A DNA stretch of 21,193 nt from the IMG/VR virus record IMGVR_UViG_3300042563_002227, positions 1 through 21,193 of that record, one strand, 5' to 3'. The position numbers were made by a program, and so were the translations under genes. The notes under the pieces were generated by a model. The model saw only the letters and a program-made list of their open reading frames with translations. It was not told the origin of the DNA and made no database searches. Positions 10,177 to 17,820 of the stretch are shown here, piece by piece. Within the stretch, counting starts at the first letter, position 1, and each line of letters opens with the position of its first letter. The DNA is from a virus.

Positions 10177-11031
10177 ATGACAGTGCCCAAGATCAAGTAC
10201 TTGACCAACAAAGACCTACTCAAAGAAATACACCTCAGCAAAAATACCTACTGCACCTATATCAAACCAGAATATGGATTCTATGATCTCATAGTGCCTA
10301 ATCTAGCTAAAATCAATATAAGAACCATAGCAGAGGCCAAACGAAACTGCGCTACGAGACTCAGCAAACAGGCGCACGAAGCAGCAGTGATAGCTGGAGG
10401 TAAAAAACTGCCTGCTAAAGAATTTGAAGTAGATTACAAAAAAATGCGCAAGGAAGATCTCATATTCCGTGTGATGACCTTTGAACACATACCGTTGGCT
10501 CCGGGGCGCAAAAAGACCCTGAAGAACACTGCGGACAGTCATGACAAAGTTAATTTTCCTCCATTCCAACATTGGAAGTTCGATGACAAAGGCAACATCA
10601 GTTGTGTGGGCAAGAGCCACTGGAAAGGTGATCTCGAGCACGGTGAATTCTCTAAGGATCACGGTCAGATGACCAACGATCTAGCTCGCATGTTTATCAA
10701 GCTCTGTGAACGCTATGCTACTAGAGGCAATGTCAGAGGCTATACCTACAACGACGAAATGCGTGGGCAGGCCATCTTACAATTAACACAGATAGGACTA
10801 CAGTTCGATGAATCCAAATCCGATAATCCTTTTGCTTATTATACCGCTGCTGTTACTAATTCATTCGTGCGAATCATCAACATTGAAAAACGCAACCAAA
10901 ACATTCGAGACGACATTCTAGAAATGAACGGCATGAATCCTTCATGGACCAGACAGAACGCAGGCGGCAGTGTGCCCGGTCCTGCCATAGTCACTACCAC
11001 TGTGGATAACACAGGTAGTGATTGGGATTGA
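10177..11031 (+). CDS. 55: Late-transcription sigma factor gp55
   Basis: gp55 is the phage sigma-family protein that lets host RNA polymerase recognise the TATAAATA late promoter, together with gp33 and the sliding clamp in T4. The sigma region-2-like part lies in residues about 165-250: DLARMFIKLCERYATRGN, GYTYNDEMRGQAILQL, ESKSDNPFAYYTAAVTNSF and INIEKRNQNIRDDILEMNG. At 284 residues it is about 100 longer than T4 gp55 (185). The added N-terminal part includes NKDLLKEIHLSKNTYCTYI, a feature I remember from cyanophage homologues. GGAGA lies 10 nt before the ATG. Late-promoter boxes elsewhere in this window are its expected targets. The gp47 gene follows after 31 nt. Identification is strong. 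Confidence 0.9.
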   Translation: MTVPKIKYLTNKDLLKEIHLSKNTYCTYIKPEYGFYDLIVPNLAKINIRTIAEAKRNCATRLSKQAHEAAVIAGGKKLPAKEFEVDYKKMRKEDLIFRVMTFEHIPLAPGRKKTLKNTADSHDKVNFPPFQHWKFDDKGNISCVGKSHWKGDLEHGEFSKDHGQMTNDLARMFIKLCERYATRGNVRGYTYNDEMRGQAILQLTQIGLQFDESKSDNPFAYYTAAVTNSFVRIINIEKRNQNIRDDILEMNGMNPSWTRQNAGGSVPGPAIVTTTVDNTGSDWD

Positions 11032-11062: not shown

Positions 11063-12073
11063 ATGAGTCTATTTAAAAAAGTCGCTTGTTTCACGGACAT
11101 ACACTTTGGTCTCAAGGGTGGTTCAAGAACACACAACACTGACTGCGAACAGTTTGTGGATTGGTTCTGCGATACTGCTAAGGCCAACGGCTGTGAAACT
11201 GCTATATTCCTCGGAGATTGGCATCATAATCGCAGCACCACTGATGTCAGTACCATGAACTATACTGTGAGCAATCTTGAAAGATTAAATGCTTCGTTTG
11301 AAAAAGTATTTTTTATACTAGGCAATCACGATCTGTTCTACAAAGACAAACGTGAAATCAACAGCATAGAATTCATGAGGCTGTTTCCTAATATCATTGC
11401 TATCAAAGATCCCTTGACCATGGAAGATGTGACCATACTGCCTTGGCTGGTAGGTGATGAATGGCGAGATGTTCCTAAGATCAAAAGCCGATACATTTTT
11501 GGTCATTTCGAACTGCCTAGTTTTTACATGAATGCCATGGTACAGATGCCAGATCACGGACAATTACAGCGCAGCCATTTCCAACATCAAGACTATGTAT
11601 TTTCGGGTCACTTTCACAAACGCCAACAGAACAACAACATTGTTTACATAGGTAATGCATTTCCTCACAACTATGCAGATGCTGGTGATGACGAGCGTGG
11701 TATGATGATGCTAGAATGGGGTGGTAAACCTGAATACATATCTTGGCCGGATCAACCTATATATAGGACCTACAAGCTGAGTCAGATCATCGACACACCA
11801 GAAAAACTGCTGCGTCCTAAGATGCACTGCCGGGTGACCATTGATTTACCTATCACATTTGAAGAAGCCAACTTCATCAAAGAAAAGTTCATGCCTGAAT
11901 ATGATCTCAGAGAACTGATGCTGATACCCGAAAAAATAGAAGTAGATGCAAATTCTACTCCTATAGATATAAATTTTGAAAGTGTAGATACCATAGTGAT
12001 GAATCAGATTAATGCCATTGACAGCGATACCTTTGACAAGAGCCTGCTGTTGGAGATATACAACGACCTATGA
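11063..12073 (+). CDS. 47: Recombination nuclease subunit gp47 (SbcD/Mre11 family)
   Basis: gp47 is the metal-dependent nuclease of the gp46/gp47 complex, which resects DNA ends for recombination-dependent replication and helps degrade host DNA. All calcineurin-like phosphoesterase motifs are present: D12-I-H14, G51-D52 in FLGDWHHNR, G87-N-H-D90, G147-H148 in IFGHFE, and SGHFH at 181-185. The length of 336 residues matches T4 gp47 (339). The C-terminal third has the helical part expected to contact gp46. The only ribosome-site-like sequence, AAAGG at 11043-11047, is 15 nt from the ATG, which is long. The stop overlaps the gp46 start as ATGA. The assignment is very strong. Confidence 0.95.
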   Translation: MSLFKKVACFTDIHFGLKGGSRTHNTDCEQFVDWFCDTAKANGCETAIFLGDWHHNRSTTDVSTMNYTVSNLERLNASFEKVFFILGNHDLFYKDKREINSIEFMRLFPNIIAIKDPLTMEDVTILPWLVGDEWRDVPKIKSRYIFGHFELPSFYMNAMVQMPDHGQLQRSHFQHQDYVFSGHFHKRQQNNNIVYIGNAFPHNYADAGDDERGMMMLEWGGKPEYISWPDQPIYRTYKLSQIIDTPEKLLRPKMHCRVTIDLPITFEEANFIKEKFMPEYDLRELMLIPEKIEVDANSTPIDINFESVDTIVMNQINAIDSDTFDKSLLLEIYNDL

Positions 12074-13848
12074 TTAAAATCAAGAATCTCACAGTTCGTA
12101 ACTTCATGAGTGTGGGCGCACAGACCCAGGCCATAGACTTTGACAAGGGTCAGTTAACTTTGGTCTTAGGTGAGAACCTGGATCTAGGCGGTGACGACTC
12201 AGGTGCTAGAAACGGCACCGGCAAGACCACCATCATCAATGGTCTCAGCTACGGCATATATGGCCAGGCCCTGACCAATATCAAACGTGATAATCTAGTC
12301 AACAAGATCAACGGCAAGGGCATGTTGGTCACTGTGACCTTTGATGTAGACGGTGTTGAATATCATATCGAACGTGGTCGCAAGCCCAACATACTGAAAT
12401 TCAGTGTCAATGGCGAAGAACAGCAGCTCACAGATCTAGACGAATCGCAAGGCGACAGCAGAGAAACACAGAAAAGCATCGAAGAACGATTCTGTATGAG
12501 CCACGACATGTTCAAGCATCTTGTGGCATTAAACACCTACACAGAACCATTCTTGGCGCAGAAGGCTGCAGAACAACGTGCTATCATTGAACAGTTGTTG
12601 GGTATTACACTGCTGAGTGAAAAAGCAGAAGCTCTCAAAGAGCAGATCAAACTGACCAAAGACAGTATCAGCACAGAGAACACTCGTGTAGAAACTGTCA
12701 AAGCCAGCAACGAGCGCATACAGCAGAGCATCACTGCCTTAGAGCGCAAGCAGAACATGTGGGAAGAAGCCAAAGAAAAGAATCTTGAAAATATTCTCAA
12801 GAGCATCGATCATCTGAGTCATATAGATATCGAACAAGAAGTAGCTGCACACAAGGCTCTGGCTGTGTATAATCAGCTGCGCAAAGACATCAACGAAGTC
12901 ACTGCTCAATTGAATCGTGCTAGACTAGATCAAAGCAGAGAAGAAAAACTTCGTGATCGATTAGCAGCTGAAATAGCCACTCTGGAACGACATCTCTGTC
13001 ATGCCTGTGGACAAGAGTTCCACGATGCCAAGCACGACGAAGTTATGGCTGCAAAACGCAAAGATCATGACTCGGCCTGTGCAGAATATGATTCACAGTC
13101 TGCAAATATCGCGGCCTATGAGTTAGCACTCACCGAACTAGGAGCTCTAGGCGATTGTCCTACGATACAGTACGATACCTTGGAAGAAGCACTGAATCAC
13201 AAGAACACATTAATCAGCTTAGAAAAAGATCTCGAGATCAAAGCCGCAGATGAAAATCCCTATGATGAACAGATCATCGAGTTGAAGGCCACTGCGGTGC
13301 AGGAGATTGACTGGAACTACATGAACGAACTGGTGCGTGTTAAAGACCATCAGGAGTTTCTGCACAAGTTACTCACAAACAAAGATTCGTTTGTGCGCAA
13401 ACGCATCATTGATCAGAATCTTGCATTCCTAAATCAACGCCTGACCTATTATCTGGACAAGATTGGCCTACCGCACACCGTGGAATTCCAAAATGATCTC
13501 ACTGTGATCATCACTCAACTAGGACAGGATCTAGATTTTGACAATTTGAGCCGCGGCGAACGCAATAGATTAATACTTTCTCTGAGTTGGGCTTTCCGTG
13601 ATGTATGGGAGAATCTGTATCACAGCATCAACCTCTTGTTCATAGACGAATTAGTTGATTCAGGCATGGATGCTTCAGGCGTAGAATCTAGTATCGCTGT
13701 GTTGAAACGCATGACCCGCGAGCGTGACAAGAATGTATTCCTAATTTCACACAGAGATGATCTAACCAGCCGTGTAAATCATGTGCTGAAGGTGATCAAA
13801 GAAAATGGATTCACCAGTTATTCCAATGATGTGGAGATCATTGAGTGA
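12070..13848 (+). CDS. 46: Recombination nuclease ATPase subunit gp46 (SbcC/Rad50 family)
   Basis: An SMC-like ATPase that works with gp47 at DNA ends. The P-loop is GARNGTGKTT at residues 45-54. The central part is a long coiled coil of charged helices broken by a zinc hook, CHAC, at 310-313. The C-terminal lobe has the ABC signature LSRGE (493-497), Walker B LLFIDE (522-527) with the D-loop DSGMD, and the H-loop FLISH ending at H561. It has 592 residues against 560 in T4. The strict first P-loop glycine position is Ala46, with Gly one residue earlier; I believe this is usual in the cyanophage-type branch. The gene starts inside the gp47 stop (ATGA), with GGAG 14 nt upstream. It appears intact. 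Confidence 0.95.
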   Translation: MIKIKNLTVRNFMSVGAQTQAIDFDKGQLTLVLGENLDLGGDDSGARNGTGKTTIINGLSYGIYGQALTNIKRDNLVNKINGKGMLVTVTFDVDGVEYHIERGRKPNILKFSVNGEEQQLTDLDESQGDSRETQKSIEERFCMSHDMFKHLVALNTYTEPFLAQKAAEQRAIIEQLLGITLLSEKAEALKEQIKLTKDSISTENTRVETVKASNERIQQSITALERKQNMWEEAKEKNLENILKSIDHLSHIDIEQEVAAHKALAVYNQLRKDINEVTAQLNRARLDQSREEKLRDRLAAEIATLERHLCHACGQEFHDAKHDEVMAAKRKDHDSACAEYDSQSANIAAYELALTELGALGDCPTIQYDTLEEALNHKNTLISLEKDLEIKAADENPYDEQIIELKATAVQEIDWNYMNELVRVKDHQEFLHKLLTNKDSFVRKRIIDQNLAFLNQRLTYYLDKIGLPHTVEFQNDLTVIITQLGQDLDFDNLSRGERNRLILSLSWAFRDVWENLYHSINLLFIDELVDSGMDASGVESSIAVLKRMTRERDKNVFLISHRDDLTSRVNHVLKVIKENGFTSYSNDVEIIE

Positions 13849-14075: not shown

Positions 14076-14510
14076 GTGCAATGGACGTTTCAAAATCAAC
14101 CCGTAGACGAAATACCAGAAGGCTATATTGGCTTTGTTTATATAATCACGAATCTACAATCCGGACAGAAGTACATAGGCAAGAAATTAGCACAATTCAA
14201 ACGTACTAAACCCCCACTCAAAGGCAAAAAACTTAAAAGAAGAAGTGTAGTAGAAAGCGATTGGCGCGAATACTATGGTTCATCGGATAGGTTAAACGCA
14301 GACGTCCAATCATTAGGTCCGGAAAACTTCACAAGAGAAATACTTTACCTTTGTAAATCCAAGGCAGAACTCAGTTATTTAGAGGCAAGAGAACAGTTTG
14401 AACGCAGAGTTTTAGAAACTGATGACTATTATAATGGCATTATAAACGTCAGAGTCGGCGGTTCAAACATACTTAGACAGCGTCTACTAGAACAATCTCA
14501 GGCAAAATAA
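14076..14510 (+). CDS. GIY-YIG family nuclease, Seg-like
   Basis: The N-terminal motif pair of the GIY-YIG fold is clear: GFVY at residues 19-22 and KYIG at 32-35, followed by SDWREYYGSS (61-70). A downstream helix, SYLEAREQFERRVL, probably supplies the catalytic glutamate, and YYNGIINVRVGG at 118-129 gives the conserved Asn region. At 144 residues it is essentially the nuclease domain with no obvious DNA-targeting domain. Similar proteins in T4-like phages are annotated as Seg-like homing endonucleases, though a repair or host-DNA-degradation role is equally possible next to gp46/gp47. The GTG start directly follows the TGA of the previous gene (TGAGTG), in the same frame and with no clear ribosome site, so translation probably depends on reinitiation. 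No better start exists. Confidence 0.78.
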   Translation: MQWTFQNQPVDEIPEGYIGFVYIITNLQSGQKYIGKKLAQFKRTKPPLKGKKLKRRSVVESDWREYYGSSDRLNADVQSLGPENFTREILYLCKSKAELSYLEAREQFERRVLETDDYYNGIINVRVGGSNILRQRLLEQSQAK

Positions 14511-14698
14511 AGCGGTTTTTTGGCTAGCGCAGGCTTAATTTCGTGCGCTCTAAACCTGGTCTACGTGTACACAGGGATGGAAAACCTTGCCGCAAAGGTG
14601 CTTAACCACTACCCGAAAGGATGACGATCGCTACTAAGACCTGCGATTTGGTTATTTGAAAAGAAAAACAAGGCAAAAAGAAGGGAGAAATACCCTAC

Positions 14699-14730
14699 GT
14701 GTGTGCATTTGTTAGCGTAAATGTATACAC
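14699..14730 (+). repeat. 12-bp hairpin in the candidate RNA
   Basis: GTGTGTGCATTT (14699-14710) pairs with AAATGTATACAC (14719-14730) across an 8-nt loop; ten Watson-Crick pairs and two G-U pairs. The G-U pairs pair less well on the complementary strand, which supports plus-strand RNA. Confidence 0.75.
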
Positions 14731-14826
14731 CGCCGTCGTATAAAGACGCAGCTCGAGGTACCGGATGACCGCCTCTGTAATGCTGTAACGCTAGAGTGTA
14801 CTGTGCAACTCGCATAATGCTGTTAT

Positions 14827-14847
14827 CTTTGCCCGGCCTGGGCAAAG
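14827..14847 (+). repeat. 8-bp perfect hairpin in the candidate RNA
   Basis: CTTTGCCC (14827-14834) and GGGCAAAG (14840-14847) are perfect complements around the loop GGCCT. No run of T follows, so it is not a usual intrinsic terminator. Confidence 0.75.
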
Positions 14848-14946
14848 TGTGACTGAACAATCTGCATAATACTTGAATTGCTTCGCAATTATAATGTCGA
14901 TAACTACTAAAAGAAGAAAATGCGTTGAGCGATCAGCGAAAACGCA

Positions 14947-14964
14947 AACGAGCGCAAGCTCGTT
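14947..14964 (+). repeat. 7-bp hairpin with GNRA loop at the RNA 3' side
   Basis: AACGAGC, GCAA loop, GCTCGTT, all perfect. It starts directly after the preceding TGCGTT/AACGCA stem (14921-14946), so the two could stack end to end. No T-tract follows; the late box begins 6 nt later. Confidence 0.75.
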
Positions 14965-14969
14965 GATGC

Positions 14970-14977
14970 GATAAATA
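14970..14977 (+). promoter_or_regulatory. Late promoter box for the 585-aa gene
   Basis: GATAAATA differs at one base from the T4 late consensus. It ends 22 nt before the ATG at 15000, giving a predicted leader of roughly 17 nt. It would drive the three-gene unit to 18050 as late genes. Confidence 0.6.
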
Positions 14978-14999
14978 AAACATAGAAACGAGAATATCA

Positions 15000-16757
15000 A
15001 TGCGATTACATAATTTAGATAAGACAAGTATCAGATATTATATTAGTGAGGATCTCAAGAGAGACCCTGCTCTCAATGAGCAATGGGATCGTATTGACAA
15101 CGAATTCTTCAAACCATGGCAAAAATATCTCAATGAAGCTGCCATTACTCCAGATCAGATCAATCAGATCTTTGCAGCTGCAGAAAAAGAATCTGTTACA
15201 GCCGGTGGCAATAGCACTATGTTGGGCAAGATTGTTGATAAAATCATCCCAGATTCTTTTCTAGGCAAGTTAGAAAAAGCACTGCCTGAACCTGATCCAA
15301 AGGCTGTGCCTGATCCAGAATTTGAAGCCAAAGCCAGTGCAGCAGTACAACAGCTAGAAGCACCAGCTGAAACCAAGACAGGTCTAATGGCCATTGTCAA
15401 AGCTGCGGTGAAAAATCCACAAGCTCAAGCAGTGGTGCTTAGTCTAGTTGGTGGTGTGCTGGGCGGCCTAATGAGCAAGGCTGGACCATTGATTGCTACT
15501 TTCTTTCCTGGAGGTGGTACTGCTGCCGTGGCTATCACTGGTGCTATTGTTGCAGGCGGTGTTGCTATTGCAGCAGCCAAACTGCAAGGCAAGCCGTGGA
15601 AAGAAGCATTTAAAGGAGCGATTAAACCTGCATTAGCTGGTGCAGCTGGTGCTGTTATTGGTCAATTTGCAGCTGGAATTGCTGGCGCTGCTGTTGACAA
15701 GGTAGCAGGAGCATTTAAAGATACTGGCGCACCACCTGGAGGTGATACCAGTGCCGCAACCACTGCTATGAATGCTGACAAAAAAATGATCGCTGATCTA
15801 CAGAAAGAATATCCCCCAGACAAGTTTGAATTTTCTGGATCGGGGGACAAAATAACTGTTATAGACCGCGCCACAGGACAAAAGGTGCAGACGCTTGATG
15901 GTCTTCAAGGCCAGTCCATGGACACAAAGACTCTAGCAGATCTAGCCAACGATCCTAATAAAGCTGTATCATCACCGCCAGGTGCTGGGCCTTTATCAAC
16001 AGGTAAAGCTGATCCAGGCATAACCGATAATCCATTGTCTTCCCCCACTCTTAATAAATTAGCTGCAAAAGTAGCCGCCGGTCAAGCACCAACTGATCAA
16101 GAAATGAGCTATCTTGACAAGATAGAAAGGAGCGCCGTGCAAATGTCCAGTGCCACTAATCCTCAAGGCACGTCTGGTATTGGTAGTCCTAATTCACAAC
16201 TCACGCTCAACACTGGAGAAGTAGTCACAGGAGCCAAGGCTGCACAAATGGCAAATGGATATTTTGATGCCACACAACGACTTAAAATGCAGGCTATTGA
16301 ACTACAAGGCAATGCCAAATACGGAACATTGAAGAATTCAATTGAACGCACTGGGAAAAAATTGTCAGAAGGTCAGGTCTATCTCGTGTTCAATAAAATT
16401 GTCACACGCAACAACTATCTTCTCGGCGAAGGAAGATTGGCCGAAGGTCCCATGGACTGGCTAAAAACCAAAGCAAAAAATTTAACAACCAAAGTCACTG
16501 CTGACAAACTTAACTCAGCTTGGCAGAAAGCAGGATCGCCCATGGATTCCGAAGCCGTGGCTAAAGTCCTAGCTGATGCAGGAGTAAATCCTGATGTGGT
16601 TAAAAAAGTCTATACTGATCTAAAAATACCTGCAGCCGGTGCTGCTGCGCCAGCAGCAATGAGTGACGCTGAATTAGATAAACTGATAGACCAGTTAAAT
16701 ACTAAACAGAAAAAAGAAATACTAACCTATGTTCAGCAACAATTAAGGGCCGCATAA
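15000..16757 (+). CDS. Putative virion or internal head protein, 585 aa
   Basis: Function not recognised. The order of parts is: a charged N-terminal segment with KPWQKYLNEAAITP (E46), an Ala/Pro linker, an Ala/Gly-rich hydrophobic region at about 141-240 with glycine-zipper-like runs (VVLSLVGGVLGGLMSKAG, AVAITGAIVAGGVAIAAAK), a polar low-complexity middle (about 241-400), then NNYLLGEGRLAEGPMDWLK (471-489). The C-terminal module AWQKAGSPMDSEAVAKVL with GVNPDVVKKVYTDL (507-541) looks familiar to me from structural proteins of marine myoviruses. LxE/A and LxE/G sites at E46, E477 and E482 resemble targets of the T4 prohead protease. A late box lies upstream. The start has only a weak ribosome site (ACGAGA). 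It could instead be a tail or membrane-acting protein because of the hydrophobic region. Confidence 0.65.
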   Translation: MRLHNLDKTSIRYYISEDLKRDPALNEQWDRIDNEFFKPWQKYLNEAAITPDQINQIFAAAEKESVTAGGNSTMLGKIVDKIIPDSFLGKLEKALPEPDPKAVPDPEFEAKASAAVQQLEAPAETKTGLMAIVKAAVKNPQAQAVVLSLVGGVLGGLMSKAGPLIATFFPGGGTAAVAITGAIVAGGVAIAAAKLQGKPWKEAFKGAIKPALAGAAGAVIGQFAAGIAGAAVDKVAGAFKDTGAPPGGDTSAATTAMNADKKMIADLQKEYPPDKFEFSGSGDKITVIDRATGQKVQTLDGLQGQSMDTKTLADLANDPNKAVSSPPGAGPLSTGKADPGITDNPLSSPTLNKLAAKVAAGQAPTDQEMSYLDKIERSAVQMSSATNPQGTSGIGSPNSQLTLNTGEVVTGAKAAQMANGYFDATQRLKMQAIELQGNAKYGTLKNSIERTGKKLSEGQVYLVFNKIVTRNNYLLGEGRLAEGPMDWLKTKAKNLTTKVTADKLNSAWQKAGSPMDSEAVAKVLADAGVNPDVVKKVYTDLKIPAAGAAAPAAMSDAELDKLIDQLNTKQKKEILTYVQQQLRAA

Positions 16758-16758
16758 T

Positions 16759-17820
16759 ATGAGACTTCATGAAATAATTACAGAATCACAGATGGACGAA
16801 GGTCCAATTGGTCGTGGGATAGGCAAGCTAGTAGGCGGTGCTGCTAGAGGTATAGGAGCCATAGCAGGCGGAGTAGTCGGTGCTGGCACAGCATTGAAAA
16901 AAGGTTACCAATCTGGAAAAGCCGTAGTAGGTGATGATCCAGATCCTAATGCAGGAAAACCTGGATATACACCACCAGCAGAAGCACCAGTAGCGGCGCC
17001 AGCGGCGGGCGGAGCAGGAGGCGCAGCACCAGCACCAGCAGGTGATCCAAAAGCAGCAGCACCAGTACCAGCAGGTGATCCAAAAGCAGCAGCACCAGCA
17101 CCAGCAGGTGATCCAAAAGCAGCAGCACCAGCACCAGCAGGTGATCCAAAAGCGGATGCTGCGGCAGCAGATGATGCAGCACGGACAGGAGAAAAAATCT
17201 ATACACAGGTCAAGTCTAACATTGACAAATTAGATAACGAAGGAAAAACACGCATACTTGATCTTTTAAAGAAAAGTATTCAATCGACACCAGCTGAACC
17301 AGATCCCGCAGCGGCAACACCGGCGGCAGGTGATCCAAAAGCAGCAGCAGATCCAGCGGCACCAGCAGGTGATCCAAAAGCAGCAGCAGATCCAGCAGCA
17401 GGTGGCAAACCTCCCAATACCATGGCCAATGCACCAGTAAGTGCCACAAACAAGGCGGACCCTAGTAATCCTAATCTAGCGGCAGCGACCCCACCAGCAG
17501 CGGATGCAGCGGCACCGGCAGCGGATGCGGCAGCTACAGCACCAGCAGGACAAGGTGCATTTGCTAACGTGGCTCAACAGTTGTCTAAACCCGCAAAAGA
17601 CCCAGCCGTTAAAGCCGCCGCAGATGCTGCACTCGCTAAACCAGGATTCCAACGAACAGCATCAGACAAACTAGCAATTAAAGCAGCCGCAGAAACAAAG
17701 AGTCTAGTACATCGTGGAAAAAGTCTTAACGAAGTATTTGCTCAAAGACTGGAAATACACAAGCGCAGAATGTTTGAATCTGCACTTACTAATGGTACGG
17801 CAAGTGTATTTGTAAAATGA
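16759..17820 (+). CDS. Repeat-containing Ala/Pro-rich protein, possible internal capsid protein
   Basis: Function not recognised. It begins MRLHEIITESQMDEGP, close in layout to the capsid-targeting peptides of T4 internal proteins (remembered as MKTYQEFIAEA), with a possible prohead protease site at E9. Residues 17-45 form a glycine-rich hydrophobic segment (IGRGIGKLVGGAARGIGAIA). Four copies of an 11-residue unit with core PAGDPKA lie at 89-132, a short helical stretch (about 141-176) follows, and two 13-residue units with the same core lie at 190-214. The C-terminus is helical and basic (LNEVFAQRLEIHKRRMFESA). Low-complexity Ala/Pro linkers dominate, so much of it is probably extended. AGGG lies 9 nt before the ATG, 1 nt after the previous stop. 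Its last codons overlap the next ATG (ATGA). Confidence 0.65.
   Translation: MRLHEIITESQMDEGPIGRGIGKLVGGAARGIGAIAGGVVGAGTALKKGYQSGKAVVGDDPDPNAGKPGYTPPAEAPVAAPAAGGAGGAAPAPAGDPKAAAPVPAGDPKAAAPAPAGDPKAAAPAPAGDPKADAAAADDAARTGEKIYTQVKSNIDKLDNEGKTRILDLLKKSIQSTPAEPDPAAATPAAGDPKAAADPAAPAGDPKAAADPAAGGKPPNTMANAPVSATNKADPSNPNLAAATPPAADAAAPAADAAATAPAGQGAFANVAQQLSKPAKDPAVKAAADAALAKPGFQRTASDKLAIKAAAETKSLVHRGKSLNEVFAQRLEIHKRRMFESALTNGTASVFVK
17023..17154 (+). repeat. Four tandem 33-bp coding repeats
   Basis: Four in-frame units encode AAPAPAGDPKA (second copy with Val in place of Ala). The DNA core GCAGGTGATCCAAAAGC recurs unchanged at 17038, 17071, 17104 and 17137. The near-identity at DNA level indicates recent expansion by slippage or unequal recombination. 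Confidence 0.9.
17326..17400 (+). repeat. Two further repeat units, 39-bp period
   Basis: The same 17-bp core recurs at 17326 and 17365, now in a 13-residue unit AGDPKAAADPAAP (the second copy incomplete at its end). It is separated from the first array by a unique helical segment, so the repeat has spread to a second site or the array was split. Confidence 0.85.

Follow-up and report, generated by a model that had tools for sequence, protein, structure and literature searches.

The intergenic gap at positions 14511-14999 of the 21-kb virus record IMGVR_UViG_3300042563_002227, whose 21,193 nucleotides were analysed as a whole and are here called the window, encodes a large, structured and evolutionarily conserved phage RNA. 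This RNA of 443 nt (14522-14964, plus strand) is delimited by conservation and covariation among 74 non-redundant sequences including the window; its predicted 5' limit is given by an Rfam match together with the first covarying helix and its predicted 3' limit by the last covarying hairpin. Conservation in the alignment of relatives spans ~14522 to ~14965 and drops beyond. The initial annotation had proposed a large conserved structured phage RNA at this place and had suggested an Rfam search and a covariation analysis of homologues; the 74-sequence alignment bears the proposal out, with strong compensatory change in all four parts tested, three pseudoknots included. The same annotation called the RNA unrecognised, which is wrong for 14522-14657, where the Rfam search returns a strong match to RF01718. 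The 5' third is thus already in Rfam, and the remainder of the molecule, as well as its link to a second type of RNA, appear undescribed in the literature searched.

The gap lies between the end of a GIY-YIG ORF at 14510 and the start of the next ORF at 15000, and the ORF list holds no plus-strand ORF of at least 40 aa between them, in agreement with the earlier view that no convincing gene is present. Two minus-strand ORFs overlap the gap (14609-14860 and 14791-15027). A protein-coding reading was rejected, as the first of these is open in 5 of the 74 aligned sequences, the window included, and the longest stop-free stretch has a mean of 75.3 vs 70.9 in mononucleotide shuffles. The gene directly 5' of the RNA (14076-14510, plus strand, 144 aa) encodes a SegE-like GIY-YIG protein (PF19835, E 3.5e-37), here called GIY; phage records often label such genes 'NAD synthetase', apparently an error that has been propagated. 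PHROGs matches identify a late sigma factor (10177-11031) and two genes to which we assign the T4 names gp47 (11063-12073) and gp46 (12070-13848), the latter with its best matches in the phage collection among large phages, namely Phosso (469 kb), PA5oct (287 kb) and Atu_ph07 (490 kb), at 46-48% identity. The downstream ORF (15000-16757, plus strand) has no Pfam or PHROGs match, and neither does a 353-aa ORF at 16759-17820, which carries tandem PAGDPKAAA-type repeats. Across the relatives, 127 of 137 loci have a GIY motif upstream in the same orientation, so that RNA and GIY are linked in most window-type loci; 10 of the 137 lack the upstream motif, and three of those ten (L085, L166 and L167) are badly placed or cut. 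The downstream gene varies in both family and strand, with 94 on the plus and 51 on the minus strand among the 145 loci having one. Among phage records matching the GIY family, 338 of 526 have names starting with 'Synechococcus', and the Polynucleobacter-1 entry reportedly mentions a nearby cyanophage-like gene, which would fit GIY.

Relatives were gathered from IMG/VR by sequence patterns. A pattern for the 5' domain found 64 stretches and a looser version 77, and a pattern for the core found at least 120 virus stretches, at least four of them chance matches; the earlier suggestion that parts near GAGGTACCGG recur in marine phage contigs is thereby supported as far as virus contigs are concerned. 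We call window type those RNAs that have the same 5' domain and core, and second type those that follow GIY genes without that core. Before alignment, 82 of 198 candidate loci were removed as chance matches, as cut short or as RNAs whose core or 5' motif varies; 44 of these 82 are still among the 160 loci used for the neighbour-gene survey, from which four chance core matches (L120, L127, L130 and L189) were excluded. The 116 loci kept include 103 that are complete, and these were thinned to 74 including the window, with an effective number of ~51. The sub-alignments A1, A3, A4 and A5 hold 49, 53, 48 and 47 rows drawn from diverse lists of 52, 56, 57 and 59, which were themselves thinned and length-limited, and the omission of rows with insertions or near neighbours biases these sub-alignments toward clean structure. 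Six pattern matches in bacterial genomes were dropped, none having the core motif at the expected distance.

The plus strand of the gap is more stable than its shuffles (z -2.23, 1 of 100 equally stable); for the minus strand the difference is smaller (z -1.12, 14 of 100). In each of the four parts, none of 500 shuffles reaches the observed covariation score, and slid controls score far lower, a comparison in which the tested structures have an advantage since they were derived from those same sequences. The number of pairs with double changes is reached by 56 of 500 shuffles for the repeat domain and 122 of 500 for the 3' hairpins, and the number of further pair types by 12 for the repeat domain, 12 for the 5' domain and 345 for the 3' hairpins.

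The 5' domain (14522-14657, plus strand) is Polynucleobacter-1 RNA: cmscan aligns the window with positions 1-141 of RF01718, the entire model, and scores the match at 102.6 bits where the cut-off is 37; all 12 relatives scanned also match the model at full length. Its helices include 14603-07/14650-54 and 14626-31/14643-48, and our alignment adds an H-type pseudoknot, 14522-24/14533-35, which crosses 14527-31/14544-48 and owes its support mainly to one pair (G-C in 36 sequences, A-U in 11). Over 48 sequences (A4) and 33 pairs, 90.6% of cells are paired vs 77.6 in shuffles, the covariation is 0.388 vs 0.174, and 24 of the 33 pairs show double changes; helix 14584-88/14595-99 is weak in this alignment (62.5-63.5% paired). 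The 2010 table lists Polynucleobacter-1 with RNA 'y' (probably), cis-regulation 'y' (probably) and switch '?', from Burkholderiales and fresh water or estuary, and its authors write that a 5' UTR is usually assumed where a motif commonly sits upstream of coding regions (Weinberg et al. 2010, PMC2864571). The literature searched held nothing further under the name Polynucleobacter-1 or the accession RF01718. Compared with the RNA described here, the Polynucleobacter-1 model covers just the first third and lacks the H-type pseudoknot, the core, the repeat domain and the 3' hairpins, and the module in our loci lies in virus records and not ahead of a fixed gene. Polynucleobacter-1 is the 5' third of a ~443-nt phage RNA.

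The core domain (14669-14800, plus strand) combines hairpins, crossing helices and two pseudoknots. Its hairpins are 14682-85/14693-96 and 14699-710/14719-30; the second had been described as a perfect 12-bp hairpin, and it is present at 14699-14710/14719-14730 but perfect only if its two G-U pairs are counted. The loop pseudoknot 14712-17/14789-94 is 96.9% paired, with double changes in 6 of 6 pairs. A second pseudoknot, 14735-39/14765-69, crosses helices 14749-52/14782-85 and 14755-58/14772-75, and within it a U-A pair becomes C-G in step in 24 sequences with no broken cell. This pseudoknot explains the AUGA loop that was earlier taken for a plain hairpin: in place of the bulged 7-bp stem that had been read at 14755, covariation gives a stem of 4 bp, 14755-58/14772-75, closing a loop that pairs with 14735-39 further upstream. 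Across 49 sequences (A1) the 35 core pairs are 88.5% paired vs 71.2 in shuffles, with double changes in 30 of 35 and a covariation of 0.516 vs 0.202. Helix 14682-85/14693-96, just 62.8% paired, is weak or misaligned, and many bases of the core are invariant.

The core is probably akin to cow-rumen-2 (RF02947), to judge from shared sequence motifs and weak model matches. Both have the same order of elements, a hairpin, GCCGCC and AGC..GG.GUAC.GGAUGACC..CC..GUAA..GC, whereas their 5' and 3' parts differ and cow-rumen-2 has no repeat domain. The RF02947 model matches the window core at full length (14699-14794) and weakly, with 22.4 bits against a cut-off of 66 and E 0.11; core scores among relatives run from 8.8 to 24.6 bits, and none exceeds the cut-off in either the 49 or the 16 records considered here. 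Run on 49 whole window-type records, all of which had passed a core-sequence filter near the cow-rumen-2 consensus, the model matches 40 at E up to 1 and 7 below 0.001, and a comparison of coordinates places a match on the core in each of the 40, with 4 of the 44 matches elsewhere. Every one of the 17 records with GGAUGACC matches, as do 23 of the 32 with other letters. In the 16 records that were fetched by their 5' domain and carry core variant GGUCAACC or GGCCAACC, the model leaves the core unmatched and has a single match elsewhere. At four sites where the core pattern occurs by chance there is no match even at E up to 10, so the pattern alone is insufficient for an RF02947 match; unrelated control genomes also yield one in 1 to 3 of 14. 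The reverse direction is weak: of 17 records, model R1 has its best match at the cow-rumen-2 site in 7 and at another place in 3, and its scores on cow-rumen-2 sites are no better than on chance pattern sites. In the Rfam 15 paper, the sole one found under the name cow-rumen-2, the table of improved structures gives it one line.

A cow-rumen-2 pattern found 57 stretches, and the 33 that have the GCCGCCAT motif are here termed the cow-rumen-2 type; some lie on contigs of >400 kb. Most have an intergenic gap of similar size. GIY is directly upstream in 0 of 33, and three have a GIY-like gene more than 2 kb off on the opposite strand. A TTTACA/G-16/17-TA promoter-like pair stands ahead of the RNA in 11 of 16 representatives, and promoter scores of at least 10 occur in 81% vs 33% of shuffles. 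Two cow-rumen-2-type RNAs (L209 and L254) lie on the same 424,163-base contig, with different genes around each, and on a 137-kb virus contig a tmRNA match of 133.5 bits (L223, 4366-4722, minus strand) lies ~3 kb from a cow-rumen-2 RNA. An isolated R1 match at L238 1009-1146 (L260; E 8.6e-5 for the record), with no Polynucleobacter-1 match, may be a further variant or chance.

The 3' repeat domain (14795-14874, plus strand) places a hairpin between two repeat units, and that hairpin is the perfect 8-bp inverted repeat 14827-34/14840-47 of the initial annotation. Its 12 pairs over 53 sequences (A3) are 84.7% paired vs 75.2 in shuffles, with a covariation of 0.273 vs 0.125; the outer stem (columns 10-13/74-78), only 57.5% paired, is weak or misaligned. 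A 9-nt direct repeat, TAATGCTGT, had been reported at 14778 and 14815 and is indeed present, but the conserved repeat is a different one, a pair of heptamers. Both read GCATAAT in the window (14812-14818 and 14864-14870, plus strand), the first preceded by CTC and the second by TCT, and these flanking triplets are invariant in the alignment. The two heptamers are identical to each other in 53 of 53 aligned sequences, while positions 1, 2, 5 and 7 vary among phages, and they are also identical in three rows omitted from A3 (L155, L179 and L192). The fixed CTC and TCT beside them speak against one repeat having been copied over its counterpart. By pattern count the identical pair occurs in 148 of 160 loci; the 12 misses comprise seven that are cut off, two with an identical pair after T, one deletion and two (L166 and L167) without a recognisable RNA there. 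The pair is likewise identical in 16 of 16 loci with the GGUCAACC or GGCCAACC core variant. L087 lacks the stretch from the core to the second heptamer, which looks like a deletion or an assembly collapse.

What links the heptamers is same-base covariation and not base pairing between them. The 200 strongest column pairs contain no complementary RNA partner for them, and their complements are not clearly enriched when matched and mismatched loci are compared: own-complement rates per kb are 0.215 vs 0.104 for GGATGAT, 0.106 vs 0.064 for GGATAAT, 0.093 vs 0.217 for AGATGAT and 0.122 vs 0.124 for GCATAAT. A GIY residue as reader of the heptamer was considered and rejected, the best coefficient being 0.60, with exceptions and within what kinship could give. 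A sponge for a CsrA-type protein would be expected to carry repeated GGA sites, and such a sponge is not favoured, since of 148 loci 97 have heptamers from which GGA is absent, and 51 have it. From the sequence comparison we infer that the heptamers may be two sites for one partner, which would differ between phages.

The repeat domain is common to the window type and to the second RNA type. The 80 best of 596 loci retrieved by their GIY family member were examined. A strong R1 match is present in 15 of the 80, and another 42 that lack one extend for 560 nt beyond the gene; these 42 were taken as the second type. Aligned representatives (L276-L342) show another conserved stretch at the equivalent place, after the GIY stop codon, with covarying pairs of its own (24 of 39 representatives, effective number 16, without a shuffled control), and the eight loci scanned have no relevant Rfam match. 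Model R2, built solely from the repeat domain of the window type, matches 35 of the 42 loci at E up to 1, once in each and within ~700 nt 3' of the GIY gene, and has no match in eight phage stretches used as negatives. Only 10 of the 35 matches fall below E 0.01, so that position carries much of the argument. Second-type loci also have identical heptamers in 35 of 42, against 0 of 840 mononucleotide shuffles, and in L281 the third base is changed to a rare one in both copies at once. R2 matches 0 of the 33 cow-rumen-2-type loci, where the repeat domain is absent, and twin sites are therefore not the function of every possible relative.

At its 3' end the RNA carries two hairpins. The first (14921-14946, plus strand) pairs 14921-26/14941-46 with inner pairs 14929-30/14936-37 and is 59% paired in the alignment; the terminal one (14947-14964, plus strand) is terminator-like, with no long T run in the window, and is the perfect 7-bp stem with a GNRA loop noted before (14947-53/14958-64, loop GCAA). 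In the terminal hairpin 98.1% of cells are paired and 6 of 7 pairs show double changes, and 110 of 116 loci have a stem of at least 6 bp within the expected range, a count without a shuffled control. Together the 15 pairs of this part (A5, 47 sequences) are 82.4% paired vs 63.1 in shuffles, with a covariation of 0.529 vs 0.201. Between the RNA and the downstream gene stands the motif GATAAATAAA (14970-14979, plus strand), which we take to be a T4-type late-promoter-like motif. Of 63 loci whose next gene is on the plus strand, 58 have such a motif no more than 45 nt from the hairpin, as against 1 of 42 with a minus-strand gene.

The reading that we favour, while stopping short of calling it probable, is that of a stand-alone RNA that works in trans, serving as scaffold or decoy and offering one partner two identical sites for recognition. 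An RNA of ~443 nt would begin just 3' of the SegE-like gene, would in this phage probably be transcribed as the 3'-most part of the gp47-gp46-GIY unit, and would end at the hairpin that precedes the next gene's late-type promoter. Of its three modules, the Polynucleobacter-1 5' domain and the doubly pseudoknotted core would form a rigid scaffold, and the third, the 3' domain, would present a 7-nt recognition element in two copies flanking a hairpin. Both heptamers could then bind the same partner, which may be a protein of phage or host origin that is a dimer or is bound twice, or a target RNA engaged as two copies, and the RNA would act in trans as scaffold or decoy during infection.

How the RNA is transcribed bears on a cis-acting alternative, which we consider unlikely: the RNA would serve the gp47-gp46-GIY operon as an attenuator or structured 3' UTR, governing mRNA stability or termination, or else would be the 5' leader of the next gene. 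In the window type no sigma-70-like promoter signal precedes the RNA (score of at least 10 in 11% of 71 vs 23% of shuffles), and the second type has little (21% vs 12% of shuffles). This lack of an own promoter weakly suggests co-transcription with the upstream operon and counts against a separate transcript of the RNA; the same-strand GIY gene directly upstream in most loci agrees with a cis role, as does the row 'y y ?' by which the 2010 table rates Polynucleobacter-1 as probably cis-regulatory (PMC2864571). A 5' leader, however, fits poorly with a next gene that varies in family and strand and with a late-promoter motif that follows the hairpin and is tied to the strand of that gene, which together indicate that the RNA is not its leader; the regulation of a downstream gene rated probable in 2010 was thus not found in these loci. 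A 3' UTR is at variance with the loci in which GIY is missing beside the RNA, and a terminator would need neither 443 nt nor several pseudoknots.

The many invariant bases and crossing helices of the core would also suit a catalytic RNA or the RNA of a ribonucleoprotein machine, by analogy with ribozymes or with GOLLD and ROOL, in which the knotted core would be the active part and the heptamers would only aid assembly; we hold this to be unlikely. GOLLD and ROOL are large ornate RNAs, GOLLD being linked to phages, and the size of the present RNA goes some way towards theirs. The likeness is one of functional analogy only: the window RNA is smaller, and in 14400-15100 Rfam has no match to GOLLD, ROOL or a ribozyme, with only RF01718 and RF02947 appearing at E up to 1. 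At the same threshold there is no match to a group I intron or RNase P RNA, and ARAGORN finds no tRNA or tmRNA gene and Rfam no match to either, in line with the initial annotation, which had seen no marks of these four classes.

A further alternative is a mobile cassette, in which the GIY-YIG protein would be a homing-type nuclease and the RNA, or the repeat-bearing DNA beneath it, would be among the things moved, protected or recognised by that protein. In ten close relatives, agreement at fourfold sites is 0.73-0.89 for GIY, 0.38-0.54 for gp46 (nine measured) and 0.24-0.49 for gp47 (eight measured). Full-length comparison of the RNA in eight of them gives 91-96% identity for seven and 79% for the remaining one. 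GIY and RNA, being less diverged than gp46 and gp47, look more recently exchanged between phages, and the repeat domain occurs in the two types with an upstream GIY and is absent from the cow-rumen-2 type. The border of the exchanged block is blurred, though, because p76, the gene before GIY, is intermediate (0.53-0.88, few sites); some loci have the RNA without GIY; and compensatory helices mean selection on RNA structure, which is unexpected for a passenger or a DNA site. Five isolates with the GIY gene (Melnitz, ACP17, phiM12, P-HM1 and C48C1) have at most ~150 nt after it, without room for the RNA and with no R1 or R2 match. These points make a cassette quite improbable as an explanation. 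HEARO RNA, a structured RNA beside an HNH nuclease gene, shares with ours the position next to a nuclease gene, but here the nuclease is GIY-YIG, the RNA is downstream of the gene, Rfam gives no HEARO match and the RNA also occurs without the nuclease. Isolated phages gave little else: blastn against INPHARED returned no record for the window, a second relative, a second-type RNA or a cow-rumen-2-type RNA; PA5oct and Atu_ph07, near gp46 carriers, have no RF01718 match and Phosso has one short match (E 0.39); Atu_ph07 (L258) has partial R1 matches of 17-19 positions to the GGUAC..ACCGCC stretch at 383320-383338 and 490121-490137 (E 0.24 and 0.46); and R2 has no match in the isolate-phage stretches searched. 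Finally, a DNA element such as an origin, packaging or recombination site with hairpin-like inverted repeats is highly improbable, for direct and inverted repeats are features of DNA too, but crossing helices with double changes and G-U pairs are expected of RNA and not of DNA sites.

A trans-acting scaffold or decoy with twin recognition sites remains our preferred reading of the window RNA, and a wider one is possible, though more speculative: a superfamily of modular phage RNAs beside recombination genes or GIY, in which at least two architectures share the 3' domain, and cow-rumen-2 perhaps the core, and in which the two types with the 3' domain carry a 7-nt address that evolves while its two copies are kept identical. 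Its members would occur in phages from the environment, including some whose genomes are very large; the two orphan motifs of Rfam would represent parts of such RNAs, and the second type would be new. An orphan Rfam motif is shown here as the first third of a larger phage RNA, for which the remaining molecule and its pseudoknots are now supplied, and the 3' domain links this RNA to a second type that has no Rfam match in the loci scanned. The twin heptamers offer a direct handle on function. If the reading is true, a lineage-specific partner would be read twice, and we know of no description of such a twin-site RNA address; with at least 120 stretches of virus contigs, at least four of them chance, matching one core pattern alone, its role likely matters in many phages.
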